From positions 248,001 to 312,000 of the forward strand of contig NZ_JAJUIS010000001.1 in NCBI RefSeq assembly GCF_029267515.1: a stretch of DNA of 64,000 nt. The letters are read 5' to 3'. This DNA is from Seleniivibrio woodruffii (lineage in GTDB: Bacteria > Chrysiogenota > Deferribacteres > Deferribacterales > Geovibrionaceae). This document shows positions 28,891 through 33,845 of this stretch, piece after piece (the stretch's first letter is position 1; each line of letters starts with the position of its first letter). Position numbers and translations under genes: made by a program. The notes under the pieces were generated by a model. It was not told the DNA's origin and ran no database searches. It was given only the letters and a program-made list of their open reading frames with translations.

Positions 28891-29730
28891 TCAGAGTAAG
28901 TTAAGGATTTTTGCGATGGCTTGAAAAGCGGGGAGCGAGCGCTCTTTTATGAAAAGGTCCGGTGTGCACACCATTGCAGAAGAAGGATCCGGATTGACGG
29001 TTATGATTTTTGAACCGTACTGCTGCATCCGTTTTGCTATGTAATCGTTTGTAGGTATCTGGCTGCTGGAACCTATGAGGAAAACGAGGTCGATGCGTTT
29101 GTGTCTGCTGAGAAAATCATCAAAATGGTTAAGTTGTATATCGTTTTCAATATATTCCCAGTCGCCGAACATCAGTATGTTGGGACGAAGAATGTCTCCG
29201 CATAAAGGGCAGCAGGGCATTGTCAGTGCGGACATGGTGTTTTCGTCCATTTCAAGCAGCGGAACGTCGGTGTTGTTCCGCACACCGTACCGGCATGAGG
29301 AGCCGTTTATACATTGCAGCCGCCACATGCTGCCGTGTATTTCGGTCACTCTGTCCGCCGACATACCGGAGATGATATGGTACCCGTCGGTATTGGTGGT
29401 GTGGACGAAACTGTCTTCAAAAATCTCCGCCGCCATAAGGTTTATGACATGATAGCCGGAGTGCGGAATATTTTTGCGGGCATTGCGCCTGCGCCATTCG
29501 TAAAACGCCCAGCTATGCTGCGGCTGTTTGCGGAAGGACGCGGGGGATGCAAGCTCCTGCGGGAGAAGTCCCTTGTCTTTGAACACCGGAAAATTCTTCC
29601 AGTAGCCGTCGCGGTCTCTGAATGTCGGGATACCGCTGTCGGCGCTCATCCCCGCCCCTGTCAGAAAAAGGCAGGTCTTCGAATTTTTAATCAGGCTTTT
29701 CAGTTCGTCGTACATGACATATTTTAGCAT
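28891..29730 (-). CDS. SIR2-family NAD-dependent protein deacylase-like protein
   Basis: Sirtuins remove acyl groups from lysines using NAD. The protein (about 279 residues from 29730) has the NAD motif GAGMSADSGIPTFR, the catalytic His in TEIHGSMW and zinc-ligand pairs around CINGSSC and CCPLCG. Two motifs deviate: the usual TQNID reads TTNTD, and FGE after the zinc domain reads FGD. The start is uncertain: ATGs at 29730 and 29715 both lack a clear ribosome site, and a further upstream frame runs through a hairpin cluster. Activity could be altered, so deacylase function is inferred only. Confidence 0.8.
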   Translation of the reverse strand: MLKYVMYDELKSLIKNSKTCLFLTGAGMSADSGIPTFRDRDGYWKNFPVFKDKGLLPQELASPASFRKQPQHSWAFYEWRRRNARKNIPHSGYHVINLMAAEIFEDSFVHTTNTDGYHIISGMSADRVTEIHGSMWRLQCINGSSCRYGVRNNTDVPLLEMDENTMSALTMPCCPLCGDILRPNILMFGDWEYIENDIQLNHFDDFLSRHKRIDLVFLIGSSSQIPTNDYIAKRMQQYGSKIITVNPDPSSAMVCTPDLFIKERSLPAFQAIAKILNLL

Positions 29731-29741
29731 GAAAATGTCAA

Positions 29742-29833
29742 AAGCACATGGATGTGCTTCGCGGCTTGAGACGAGACGCCTTTGGTGTCGAGTCGAGAGA
29801 AGCGTTGCGAACAAACGACATGGAAGTCGTTTG
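29742..29833. repeat. cluster of three consecutive hairpins
   Basis: Three inverted repeats lie in 92 bases: AAGCACAT-GG-ATGTGCTT (29742-29759), an imperfect 11-bp pair closing on TTT (29770-29794), and CAAACGAC-ATGGAA-GTCGTTTG (29812-29833). The arms differ in sequence, but each centre contains TGG. The cluster sits directly upstream of the sirtuin-like gene and could be its leader or an intergenic repeat. Confidence 0.5.
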
Positions 29834-30421: not shown

Positions 30422-31852
30422 ATGGCAAAAGTTAAGCAGGAATTCCGGTACAGACAGGTTATGGACGTTATCGTAACCATGATGGAGAACGAGGTTCTGC
30501 GTCCCGGCGACAAGGTTCCGTCGCTGCGGAAGATGAGTGAGGAACAGAGTGTAAGCCTTTCGACAGTGATGCAGGCATACATGGAACTTGAGAGCGTAGG
30601 TATGCTGGAAGCCCGCCCCCAGTCGGGGTTCTACGTTTCCGGCGGCACCATTGTCCCCCGCGAGACGGTGCGGGTGACCAAGCCCAGCGACCAGCCCATG
30701 CAGGTTAAAAACAGCAACCTGATACAGGAGATATTGTACGCGGTCACCAATCCGGAGATAATTCCGTTGGGATGCGCCATGCCTGCAACTGAACTGTTAC
30801 CCCACAGGGAACTGAACAGTATAATGAAAAAACTGTTATCCACCGACAGCGAAACGCGGGTGGAATACGGCGACGTTCAGGGACATAAATTTTTCCGCCA
30901 GCAGCTCGCCTATTACATGAATATGAACGGCAATTCCATAAGCAGCGACAATATAATCATTACAAACGGCGCTTCCGAAGGCATAACCATGGCGATGCGC
31001 GCCGTGACGCGTCCCGGAGACCTTGTTCTGATGGAATCGCCCAGCTATTTCGGATTCATGCACCTGCTTGAAACAGCTAAGGTTTATGCTCTGGAGCTTC
31101 CGACCAGCCCGCAGGACGGCATACTTATGAAGGATTTCCGTGAAGCGCTGAACAGATTCGACGTTAAAGCGGTTCTGGTTCAGCCTAACTATGGCAATCC
31201 CATGGGGCACACCTACCCCGAAGACGCGCGTAAAGAGCTTGTGGAGCTTTGCAACAAAAAGGATATCCCCGTTATTGAGGACGATATCAACGGCGATTTC
31301 AACTTTTCCGGCAGGCGGCTCAGCAACCTGAAAAAATACGACAAAAACGGCAACGTGATACACGTTTCATCCTTTTCAAAGAGTCTCGCGCCGGGTTATC
31401 GCGTGGGCTGGATCGAACCGGGCAAATATTTCGACGAGATACTGCGCCAGAAGATAGCGTCCAGCATGGCGACGAACACTGTGCCGCAGCTTACCGTTGC
31501 GCACTTCCTCGCATCGGGCAAATTTCCCAGACACCTGCGCAAAATGAATAACAGTTTCAAGGCGCAGGTTGAGACATATACATATCAGATTCTCCGCCAC
31601 TTCCCCGAAGGAACGCGGGTGACACGCCCGCAGGGCGGATTCGTTCTTTGGGTGGAGATGCCGGACAAGGTGGACACGCTGGACATGTACCCCAGAGCGC
31701 TTAAAGAGAAGATATCTTTTTCGCCTGGCGGGATTTTCTCATCTCAGCAGAAATACAATAACTGTATGCGGATAAACTGCGGATTTCCTTGGGACAGCAA
31801 GTTTGAGAAATCGATAATCAGGCTGGGTGGGATAGCTAAGAGCTACCTGTAA
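30422..31852 (+). CDS. MocR-type (GntR wHTH plus aminotransferase fold) transcriptional regulator or aminotransferase
   Basis: The 476-residue protein fuses an N-terminal GntR winged helix (about 8-72; PGDKVPSLRKMSEEQ, STVMQAYMELESVGML) to a class I aminotransferase fold with NGASEG (182-187), Asp288 and PLP-lysine Lys320 in SSFSKSLAPGYRVGW. MocR proteins use PLP or an amino-acid adduct as effector; PdxR, GabR and YdcR-like members are examples. GAGG at 30413-30416 supports the start. The divergent DUF2917 gene and the ATAACAG repeats suggest local control. Its stop is two bases from the stop of the convergent foreign cassette. Confidence 0.92.
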   Translation: MAKVKQEFRYRQVMDVIVTMMENEVLRPGDKVPSLRKMSEEQSVSLSTVMQAYMELESVGMLEARPQSGFYVSGGTIVPRETVRVTKPSDQPMQVKNSNLIQEILYAVTNPEIIPLGCAMPATELLPHRELNSIMKKLLSTDSETRVEYGDVQGHKFFRQQLAYYMNMNGNSISSDNIIITNGASEGITMAMRAVTRPGDLVLMESPSYFGFMHLLETAKVYALELPTSPQDGILMKDFREALNRFDVKAVLVQPNYGNPMGHTYPEDARKELVELCNKKDIPVIEDDINGDFNFSGRRLSNLKKYDKNGNVIHVSSFSKSLAPGYRVGWIEPGKYFDEILRQKIASSMATNTVPQLTVAHFLASGKFPRHLRKMNNSFKAQVETYTYQILRHFPEGTRVTRPQGGFVLWVEMPDKVDTLDMYPRALKEKISFSPGGIFSSQQKYNNCMRINCGFPWDSKFEKSIIRLGGIAKSYL

Positions 31853-31854
31853 GC

Positions 31855-32592
31855 CTATTTTATAAATGACTTTATATTTGTTGTATATTTTGGCATTTCA
31901 TTCCATATTTTACCATCAAGAGTACGACCTGAAATTTTTTTGTTTGTTCCTCCCCATTGTTTGAAAAAAAATGAAACATTTTCATCCACACATTTGTCAC
32001 GGATTTCTCTAGCCCAATCAATCAATAACGGTCTTGCATTAGCTCCAGACTCTCCACCGGCAACAACCCAATTTATATCTTTGAGATTTATATTTTTAAT
32101 CGAACTAATCAATGGTTCTGCTGATATAAATCTAATTTTTGCAGGAATTTGTCTTAAATGTTCCGCTCTAAACATCACTTCAGAATTTTCAACAGTGACA
32201 CCAGCCCAAGCGTTTGATGGAAAGCCGTATTTATTGGTAAATATTGCGAATCTTTCGCTTCGTTTAGTTAGTATTTGAAATGTATGCCAATATGCGTTTT
32301 TTATAACATCAAAAATATTAATGATAAAATTATCGGGGACATCATTGTGGAATAAATCACTCATGGAACACACAAAAATCATTCGTGGCTTTTTCCAGAG
32401 CAATGGTGCATTTAGTACATGATTATGACAGGTGAGTTTAAAGCCATTCATATAATTTTTGCTTCCCATCATTTTGAGTCTATTTGCCATTTTTTCTGCG
32501 TAGCAGTTATTGCACCCTGAGCTTATTTTTGTGCATCCTGTAATTGGGTTCCATGAAGATTCAGTCCATTCAATTCTTGAAATATTACTCAT
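31855..32592 (-). CDS. DUF5131 (phage Gp37/Gp68-like) three-Cys-motif protein
   Basis: The 245-residue protein has the full set of family motifs: IEWTESSWNPITGC, then C-x6-C-x2-C with Cys20, Cys27 and Cys30 (GCNNCYAE), CSMSDLFH, WAGVTVEN, SAEPL, WVVAGGESG and FFKQWGG. The Cys spacing resembles, but is wider than, the radical-SAM CX3CX2C motif; the family is thought to be TIM-barrel-like and its reaction is unknown. It lies 7 bases downstream of tcmP, its known gene partner. Base composition is clearly A+T-richer than its neighbours, indicating acquisition by transfer. No phage structural genes adjoin. Confidence 0.9.
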   Translation of the reverse strand: MSNISRIEWTESSWNPITGCTKISSGCNNCYAEKMANRLKMMGSKNYMNGFKLTCHNHVLNAPLLWKKPRMIFVCSMSDLFHNDVPDNFIINIFDVIKNAYWHTFQILTKRSERFAIFTNKYGFPSNAWAGVTVENSEVMFRAEHLRQIPAKIRFISAEPLISSIKNINLKDINWVVAGGESGANARPLLIDWAREIRDKCVDENVSFFFKQWGGTNKKISGRTLDGKIWNEMPKYTTNIKSFIK

Positions 32593-32599
32593 TTTGTTC

Positions 32600-33736
32600 C
32601 TAAGGAAACAAAATCACGACAGCATCTTCACAAAATGCTTTTCCTCTTGGAGTGCCATCTGATTTTATTTCAGATAAATTTATTCGCTTGTTTTTTACCA
32701 TATATTTAATTGTATCGCAGTAATTTGTTCTGCAATAGTTCGTTTTTATATGGTGTTGTTTAAAGAGCTTATTAAAGGTAATTTTTTCCCCTTTGAAATC
32801 ACTTAGCAAATCACAAGCCAAATCCTCTTTCCTATTGGTAATATAATTATCGACAGCGTTATTGTTCGCTCTCGGATTATATTCATATATAGGGAATCCA
32901 TTTGAATCTGAATTGATTTTTCTTATAATATCTTTGAATAATAAATAACCTACTTCGCTTTTGGTTATATGAAATAGGTAGTGTTGTGTGCAATTTGCTT
33001 TTTTACTTAAAAATCTAAAATGTGATACATAAGTTTTTGGAAAAAGTTTTGTTAATTCCTTTTTAAAAGATTCTACAATAAGATTTTGCTTTTGGTGTTG
33101 AGATAAACATTGTTCTTGTTGTTTGATGCTTATGTAGCTGTCTCCAAAAAGAGGAGCTAAATTTGAATCAGAATTTTTTAGTCTCAATGCTCTAATTACG
33201 CCGACATAATTAAAAAAAATAAAACAGTCAGAACCAAACTCCTCTATTCCGGTTCTTATAGATTCTAAACTTAGCCCCTTATAACCAAAAGGATCCAAAA
33301 AAAGCAAGGTTGGAAAATTACATCTTTTGAATATATTGTTAACTAGAGTGACGTCAACTTTTTGATTAGTAAATTGTGGTGGATACCTAAAATTAAGATT
33401 TGAACAAATATTGCCAACGCAACCAGACAATGACTCAATTGATGCCTTATGACTATCATTGAATATTGCTTCAACGCAGTTTCGTTGCTGCTCAGATTGT
33501 ACAATCTTTGACATAATTGACATTGCAGTTCCATGTGAGCCATCTTTATATGCACCTGCACCAGCATACAAATCAATATACCCAAAATGAGTCTCATGAA
33601 AATTTTTATTTGGAGATGATTTAGCTGAATTCATCATTTTTTCAATCCAAGATGAATAATAATCAGTGACTATTTTAGTTTTAATGCTACTGCTAGTTGT
33701 TTTAGATTGAAAAAACTCATCAGACGTTTTACCCAT
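32600..33736 (-). CDS. tcmP: three-Cys-motif partner protein TcmP
   Basis: The 378-residue protein matches the TcmP family, described as the regular partner of the three-Cys DUF5131 protein. It has features of a class I methyltransferase-like Rossmann fold: YIDLYAGAG (53-61), acidic FNDSH (92-96), LDPFG (147-151) in place of a DPPY motif, and NYVG (176-179). The last 70 residues (SDFKGEKITFNKLFKQHH onward) look like a winged helix. Function is unknown; nucleic-acid modification or defence is conjecture. A 60-base sample at 33181-33240 has 19 G+C, compared with 30 in a sample of the upstream MocR gene. Confidence 0.88.
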   Translation of the reverse strand: MGKTSDEFFQSKTTSSSIKTKIVTDYYSSWIEKMMNSAKSSPNKNFHETHFGYIDLYAGAGAYKDGSHGTAMSIMSKIVQSEQQRNCVEAIFNDSHKASIESLSGCVGNICSNLNFRYPPQFTNQKVDVTLVNNIFKRCNFPTLLFLDPFGYKGLSLESIRTGIEEFGSDCFIFFNYVGVIRALRLKNSDSNLAPLFGDSYISIKQQEQCLSQHQKQNLIVESFKKELTKLFPKTYVSHFRFLSKKANCTQHYLFHITKSEVGYLLFKDIIRKINSDSNGFPIYEYNPRANNNAVDNYITNRKEDLACDLLSDFKGEKITFNKLFKQHHIKTNYCRTNYCDTIKYMVKNKRINLSEIKSDGTPRGKAFCEDAVVILFP

Positions 33737-33827
33737 TTTTTAACCTCATTCATGCCATGTGAATAATAATCGGATAAAAGAATAAAAGTCATGAGAAGTT
33801 AATTAGAGTAAAAAAGGAAAAACAGGA

Positions 33828-33845
33828 GGGGGCATTTCAGCCCCC
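33828..33845 (-). terminator. intrinsic terminator for the peroxiredoxin gene
   Basis: GGGGGC-ATTTCA-GCCCCC is a perfect 6-bp GC stem. On the minus strand it is followed by TCCTGTTTTTCCTTTTTT, just after the peroxiredoxin stop codon. Confidence 0.8.

Follow-up and report, generated by a model that had tools for sequence, protein, structure and literature searches.

Organization and base composition of the TcmP/DUF5131 locus

Analysis of the window (the whole stretch of 64,000 nucleotides of Seleniivibrio woodruffii DNA that was analyzed) revealed two adjacent genes on the minus strand between the MocR and peroxiredoxin genes. The first gene, tcmP (32600 to 33736), encodes a TcmP protein of 378 amino acids, and the second gene (31855 to 32592) encodes a protein of 245 amino acids that belongs to the DUF5131 (phage Gp37/Gp68) family. 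The original prediction had placed such a pair, 7 bases apart and ending two bases from the MocR stop codon, at positions 31855 to 33736. This arrangement was confirmed. Both open reading frames are intact, the intergenic gap spans 7 bp (32593 to 32599), and the proteins match TIGR04474 (TcmP, 120.9 bits; cutoff, 53) and PF07505 (DUF5131, E value of 4e-95). Two bases separate the end of the MocR stop codon (31852) from the start of the DUF5131 stop codon (31855).

The G+C content of the cassette is 31.8%, compared to 46.6% for the window. In the rest of the window, non-overlapping stretches of 1,882 bp had a minimum G+C fraction of 0.408 (mean, 0.470; standard deviation, 0.025), and a 1-kb scan identified the cassette as the sole region of the window below 0.40. 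The GC3 values are 0.23 to 0.26 in the cassette and 0.56 to 0.66 in the MocR, peroxiredoxin, and murI genes. The counts given earlier for two 60-base segments (19/60 G+C at 33181 to 33240 versus 30/60 at 30541 to 30600) proved exact.

The tcmP leader (33737 to 33827, minus strand) lies within the inserted DNA and carries a Shine-Dalgarno-like GAGG ahead of the ATG. A promoter scan of this leader yielded a weak promoter-like match at 33792 to 33763, which is within chance expectation. An ancestral hairpin terminator (33828 to 33845, minus strand), which is also present in a sister genome, marks the boundary between the peroxiredoxin unit and the insert and lies outside the cassette. The presence of this terminator implies that tcmP expression is not a mere result of read-through from the peroxiredoxin gene. 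No defense gene neighbors the cassette at the window site. A gene for a SIR2-family deacetylase-like protein is located at 28891 to 29814 (minus strand); its G+C content is ordinary, and a defense context is not apparent.

Insertion of the pair and its horizontal origin

Four congeneric genomes have kept the MocR gene (74 to 92% DNA identity) together with the same downstream genes, and a search for DUF5131 across these four genomes revealed none. In the closest congener (G009), the MocR stop codon is followed within approximately 5 bp by the hairpin GGGGCATTTCAGCCCC, which ends the peroxiredoxin unit and is the same hairpin as that at 33828 to 33845 of the window. Approximately 1.97 kb has therefore been inserted between the MocR stop codon and the hairpin. 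In a further congener (G011), murI directly follows the MocR gene. The empty site in the four congeners and the absence of DUF5131 from them indicate that the cassette was gained by insertion, as the foreign origin and the empty-site comparison suggested in the original prediction had implied. Comparison with G009 (locus L003) placed the inserted A+T-rich DNA at approximately 31853 to 33822 (no strand assigned); the A+T-rich pair was thus correctly recognized, but the inserted DNA is somewhat longer than had been predicted.

Two other members of the family, G002 and G004, carry a TcmP-paired copy, both at other sites. The G002 pair adjoins a tyrosine recombinase gene, with a type I methyltransferase gene about 6 kb away, and the G004 pair lies beside an aminotransferase gene. 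The window TcmP shares 38% identity with the G002 (Denitrovibrio) copy, which is somewhat closer than the others (at most 33%). The presence of relatives in these two genomes would fit a resident, vertically inherited pair of odd base composition that was lost in the sister genomes. Such a history is extremely improbable, since all four congeners lack the pair and keep the junction, the family copies sit in unrelated neighborhoods, the window DUF5131 is as close to its best matches in other phyla (56 to 58%) as to the copies of its own family (55%), and the base composition is sharply unlike that of the flanks. A resident A+T-rich gene pair was rejected on the grounds of the empty site, the unrelated neighborhoods, and the composition. 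Judged from these genome comparisons, the pair was acquired horizontally.

The insert contains no open reading frame for a recombinase, transposase, or integrase, and neither terminal repeats nor a target duplication are visible at its ends. A transposon or integrative element was rejected because all of these features are missing at the window copy. The pair had been described as a mobile two-protein system; it holds as a horizontally acquired two-gene unit, and "mobile" for the window copy means horizontally acquired.

DUF5131 is a predicted radical-SAM protein

The DUF5131 protein contains the predicted motif C-x6-C-x2-C, formed by C20, C27, and C30. These three residues are invariant across 56 aligned DUF5131 sequences, and the spacing is kept in 162 of 165 relatives. 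An AlphaFold2 model of the protein (pLDDT of 93.2) was compared with the Protein Data Bank (PDB) using Foldseek. The best six matches were all spore photoproduct lyase (SPL), with E values of 8e-4 to 5e-3 and moderate TM-scores, normalized to the query, of up to 0.57. Queuine lyase, viperin, and biotin synthase, which are radical-SAM proteins, followed further down the list among other TIM barrels. The model and the Foldseek matches combine a radical-SAM-type barrel with an N-terminal Cys motif. One DUF5131 relative with an extra N-terminal region matched the Pfam family Radical_SAM (PF04055) with an E value of 6.8e-6, although its 26.8 bits are just below the curated cutoff of 29.5. Sequence searches of the PDB with either protein of the pair or its profile gave no significant match, and matches were obtained by fold comparison only. 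Judged by its predicted fold, DUF5131 resembles the SPL-type radical-SAM enzymes.

DUF5131 without TcmP occurs in genus g3 of the family, in several genomes, and on viral contigs; it is therefore not toxic without TcmP. In genus g3, a separate TcmP-less branch (LPIWNPWHGCTKISPGC; loci L023, L024, and L026 of genomes G004 to G006) is present in three of three genomes, with the same neighbors in two of them, and is possibly a housekeeping radical-SAM paralogue. In locus L025 (1447 to 2730), DUF5131 is fused to an N-terminal region of about 200 amino acids that appears ParB-like by eye and has no Pfam match. A TcmP-like open reading frame with a DPYG motif, matched by no profile, precedes this fusion.

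TcmP is a predicted class I methyltransferase with a winged helix

Analysis of the TcmP sequence identified motif I (YIDLYAGAG) and motif IV (LDPFGY), both as originally noted. The C-terminal tail, which had been called winged-helix-like, matched the GMT-like winged helix PF22560 over residues 304 to 354 (E value of 3e-7). Residues D55, G59, G61, and D148 are invariant across 64 aligned TcmP sequences, and nearly all relatives have D-P-[WF]-G-[YF] as motif IV. The AlphaFold2 model (pLDDT of 90.3) matched the RlmJ family, Trm1, MnmM, and CamA, with TM-scores, normalized to the query, of at most 0.37 among the top matches. TcmP has the hallmarks of class I SAM methyltransferases, namely a Rossmann-like fold, a motif I rich in glycine, and an acidic motif IV, and is accordingly a predicted class I methyltransferase with a winged helix. 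Structure prediction had been proposed as a check for SAM and Fe-S pockets. Both predicted folds are SAM-enzyme folds and do not contradict the original prediction; they agree with the radical-type chemistry suggested for the three-Cys protein and with the methyltransferase-like nature suggested for TcmP.

Pairing and incidence of TcmP and DUF5131

TcmP relatives were found with alignment queries instead of a single sequence; a single-sequence TcmP scan of viral contigs revealed no relatives. In genomes from many bacterial phyla and two archaea, DUF5131 adjoins TcmP at 78 of 80 TcmP loci, and the two loci without an adjacent DUF5131 gene both end at a contig edge. In an even sample of TcmP matches from cyanobacteria and Rhizobiaceae, DUF5131 lies within 1.5 kb of most TcmP genes. 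The gene order varies: TcmP comes first in most loci, the genes are convergent in cyanobacteria, and DUF5131 comes first in others. On viral contigs, a TcmP-like neighbor was found at no fewer than 45 of 80 DUF5131 loci.

TcmP was detected in 27 of 145 genomes from one class of cyanobacteria, in 13 of 121 genomes from the family of a Rhizobium, and in 2 of 40 genomes from a third group. The incidence of the pair is thus patchy, at 5 to 20% in the groups sampled. The distances of TcmP and DUF5131 in 77 pairs were correlated (r = 0.48), exceeding all 999 permutations (maximum, 0.25). When the cyanobacteria were left out, the correlation (r = 0.39) fell within the permutations (maximum, 0.45), so that partner swapping may also have occurred.

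Genomic context of the pair

The suggested link to defense loci was substantiated by copies in restriction and DISARM-like operons and beside Hna. In loci L062 and L103, a BPTD_3080 restriction enzyme, TcmP, DUF5131, and a DNA methylase are encoded in one operon. A gene for a DrmD-like SNF2 helicase lies directly upstream of the pair in the DISARM-like loci L075 and L090, and a type III Res gene occurs with the pair in L028. A methyltransferase and a second enzyme within Res/Mod operons could represent a restriction-modification-like pair, in which TcmP would mark self and the radical chemistry of DUF5131 would damage unmarked DNA. This is very unlikely, because TcmP-less DUF5131 is tolerated in several genomes and on viral contigs, unlike a free restriction enzyme. 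ResIII was found next to TcmP in 8/130 cases versus at most 1/103 among genes more than 5.5 kb away (P value of 0.01 to 0.08). The enrichment near defense genes that neighborhood analysis had been expected to reveal is therefore suggestive only, and it concerns restriction-type helicases beside TcmP.

In locus L250 (9221 to 14882, corresponding to Sinorhizobium meliloti pSymA 1254220 to 1259881), a DUF5131 gene and the gene for a long TcmP are convergent with the gene for a short TcmP. The short TcmP, of the PDC-M41A type, follows a helicase of 845 amino acids that matches PDC-S28 (1,020 bits) and whose position fits Hna (SMa2245). Hna is a reported phage defense gene, listed with the TcmP gene SMa2243 (PMC12445080). 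The locus contains two TcmP subtypes, and the same DUF5131-TcmP-L-TcmP-S layout is present in L234.

The lysogeny module of the Gordonia phage Fairfaxidum carries the pair, flanked by the integrase gene on one side and the immunity repressor gene on the other. In the viral loci L166, L173, L178, and L180, DUF5131 and a convergent TcmP-like gene lie beside a phage lysozyme-like gene, which is a cargo site other than the integrase/repressor module. The frequency of the pair on viral contigs would suit a self-modification function, in which the two proteins would produce a hypermodified base in the DNA or RNA of their own carrier, for restriction escape in phages and as an epigenetic or tRNA/rRNA mark in hosts. 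The fold matches of TcmP, which include RNA and DNA methyltransferases, and the lack of toxicity of DUF5131 alone are in line with this. Base-hypermodification genes were not noticed as regular neighbors, and the patchy incidence speaks against a conserved RNA mark; self-modification is a possible but doubtful explanation.

Plasmid copies of the pair occur near Tn3, Tn7-like, IS, and drmC genes. On a Comamonas plasmid (L192, 5366 to 6786), a gene for an S24 (LexA/UmuD-like) peptidase with a helix-turn-helix overlaps the start of the DUF5131 gene and is positioned ahead of tcmP, which suggests damage- or phage-responsive control. In cyanobacteria, copies of the pair have chromosomal positions in common, with ileS or NADH-dehydrogenase/homoserine-kinase-type genes next to them (names assigned partly by eye). 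Such sites beside ordinary genes would also fit a housekeeping role.

An accessory DNA repair pair was considered, in which DUF5131 would be a radical-SAM lyase that reverses photoproducts or adducts, TcmP would be its recognition partner, and the function would be lesion repair and not immunity. All of the best structural matches of DUF5131 belong to a DNA repair enzyme, and the S24 peptidase gene on the Comamonas plasmid points in the same direction. A response to mitomycin C has been reported for the mycobacterial cluster Rv2734-Rv2735c-recX-recA (PMC5057432), and BCG_2748c has been reported as a gene with a TcmP domain (PMC7387457); this would provide a further lead if BCG_2748c is a gene of that cluster. 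In contrast, TcmP is confined to 5 to 20% of the genomes in the groups sampled, its repeated placement in restriction operons and beside Hna is atypical of repair genes, and a Pfam survey of the immediate neighbors revealed no repair family among the 25 commonest. A repair function is therefore rather unlikely, although repair and self-modification are both serious competitors of the explanation preferred below.

Proposed function of the pair

The best explanation, to which we assign a probability of roughly 50%, is that the cassette is an acquired PDC-M30-type nucleic acid module of two SAM enzymes that is retained for use in conflicts with phages and mobile elements. This explanation builds on the insertion, the pairing and its patchy incidence, on the motifs, and on the repeated occurrence of the pair inside or next to defense loci and prophage modules, as well as on the two predicted folds; from these, we infer a cluster, catalysis, a shared substrate, and a defense phenotype. 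In DUF5131, C20, C27, and C30 would coordinate a [4Fe-4S] cluster, and the protein would convert SAM to a 5'-deoxyadenosyl radical in its SPL-like barrel. TcmP would act as a SAM-dependent methyltransferase whose winged helix binds DNA or RNA. Both proteins would share one nucleic acid substrate, with recognition and methylation performed by TcmP and the radical step performed by DUF5131, through which a modification may be installed, rearranged, or removed. The pair would be retained through an advantage against phages and other mobile elements.

In a more specific and unlikely alternative, TcmP would recognize and methylate a target base and the radical step of DUF5131 would disable invading DNA or RNA, or strip a protective modification, as the act of defense. 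To our knowledge, no established defense system uses radical-SAM chemistry on nucleic acid; the substrates of the radical-SAM protein viperin are free nucleotides.

The pair, which is widespread in archaea and in bacteria of many phyla as well as on plasmids and in phages, is filed in databases under "unknown function" and as a defense candidate without a mechanism. The structural assignments turn it into a concrete, testable hypothesis of two SAM enzymes. The window copy is small and intact, has its own leader, and faces a clean empty site in the sister genomes, which makes it convenient for transfer to a laboratory host.

Comparison with known systems

The fold predicted for DUF5131 resembles that of SPL. 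In a profile alignment with an SPL, the SPL motif VTGC-x3-C-x2-CY was placed on the DUF5131 motif, but the alignment was weak overall (probability of 9%). SPL has the spacing C-x3-C-x2-C (as in L198), whereas DUF5131 has C-x6-C-x2-C. DUF5131 was rejected as an SPL orthologue because of this spacing and the low profile probability. With an identity of about 10% and a query-normalized TM-score of about 0.5, the likeness is one of predicted fold. DUF5131 also resembles the radical SAM mobile pair protein A (TIGR04471), which it matches over residues 15 to 212 (E value of 2e-18); at 66.6 bits against a cutoff of 355, it is not a member of that family.

TcmP shares the class I methyltransferase fold with the 23S rRNA methyltransferase RlmJ and the tRNA guanine-26 methyltransferase Trm1. 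Motif IV of TcmP resembles the D-P-F-G of two archaeal Trm1 proteins and is unlike the D-P-P-F of an RlmJ homologue. TcmP differs from both enzymes in its winged helix and its near-obligate partner. No match of TcmP to the RlmJ or Trm1 families was found in Pfam, and hhalign comparisons with the RlmJ and Trm1 profiles were not significant (probabilities of 0.3 and 2%). TcmP was thus rejected as an orthologue of either enzyme.

Searching PADLOC-DB 2.0 revealed matches of both proteins to PDC-M30/PDC-M41, phage defense candidates derived from "guilt-by-embedding". TcmP matched PDC-M30A (E value of 6e-17), and DUF5131 matched the B component with E values of 5e-107 and 2e-109; its bit scores were 363 for PDC-M41B and 355 for PDC-M30B. 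The NCBIfam name of TcmP derives from the three-Cys partner. The original prediction had ranked the pair as an undescribed system, a view that these entries overturn. In Pseudomonas aeruginosa, 68.8% of 32 carriers of PDC-M30, assigned by prediction only, were phage resistant in one panel (PMC10855318), and two PDC-M30 copies are present in strain PA14, also by prediction only (PMC11878078). A literature search found neither an experimental test of PDC-M30/PDC-M41 or report of its anti-phage activity nor a paper on DUF5131 or the radical SAM mobile pair. The window locus has the composition of this candidate system, a TcmP-family protein adjacent to DUF5131. Its TcmP is a distant M30A member, and no feature sets the window copy apart. 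The window pair is a new, well-bounded copy of a known but unexplained candidate system, for which the predicted SPL-like radical-SAM fold of DUF5131 and the predicted methyltransferase and winged-helix architecture of TcmP offer a structural hypothesis that is sharper than anything in the database entries.
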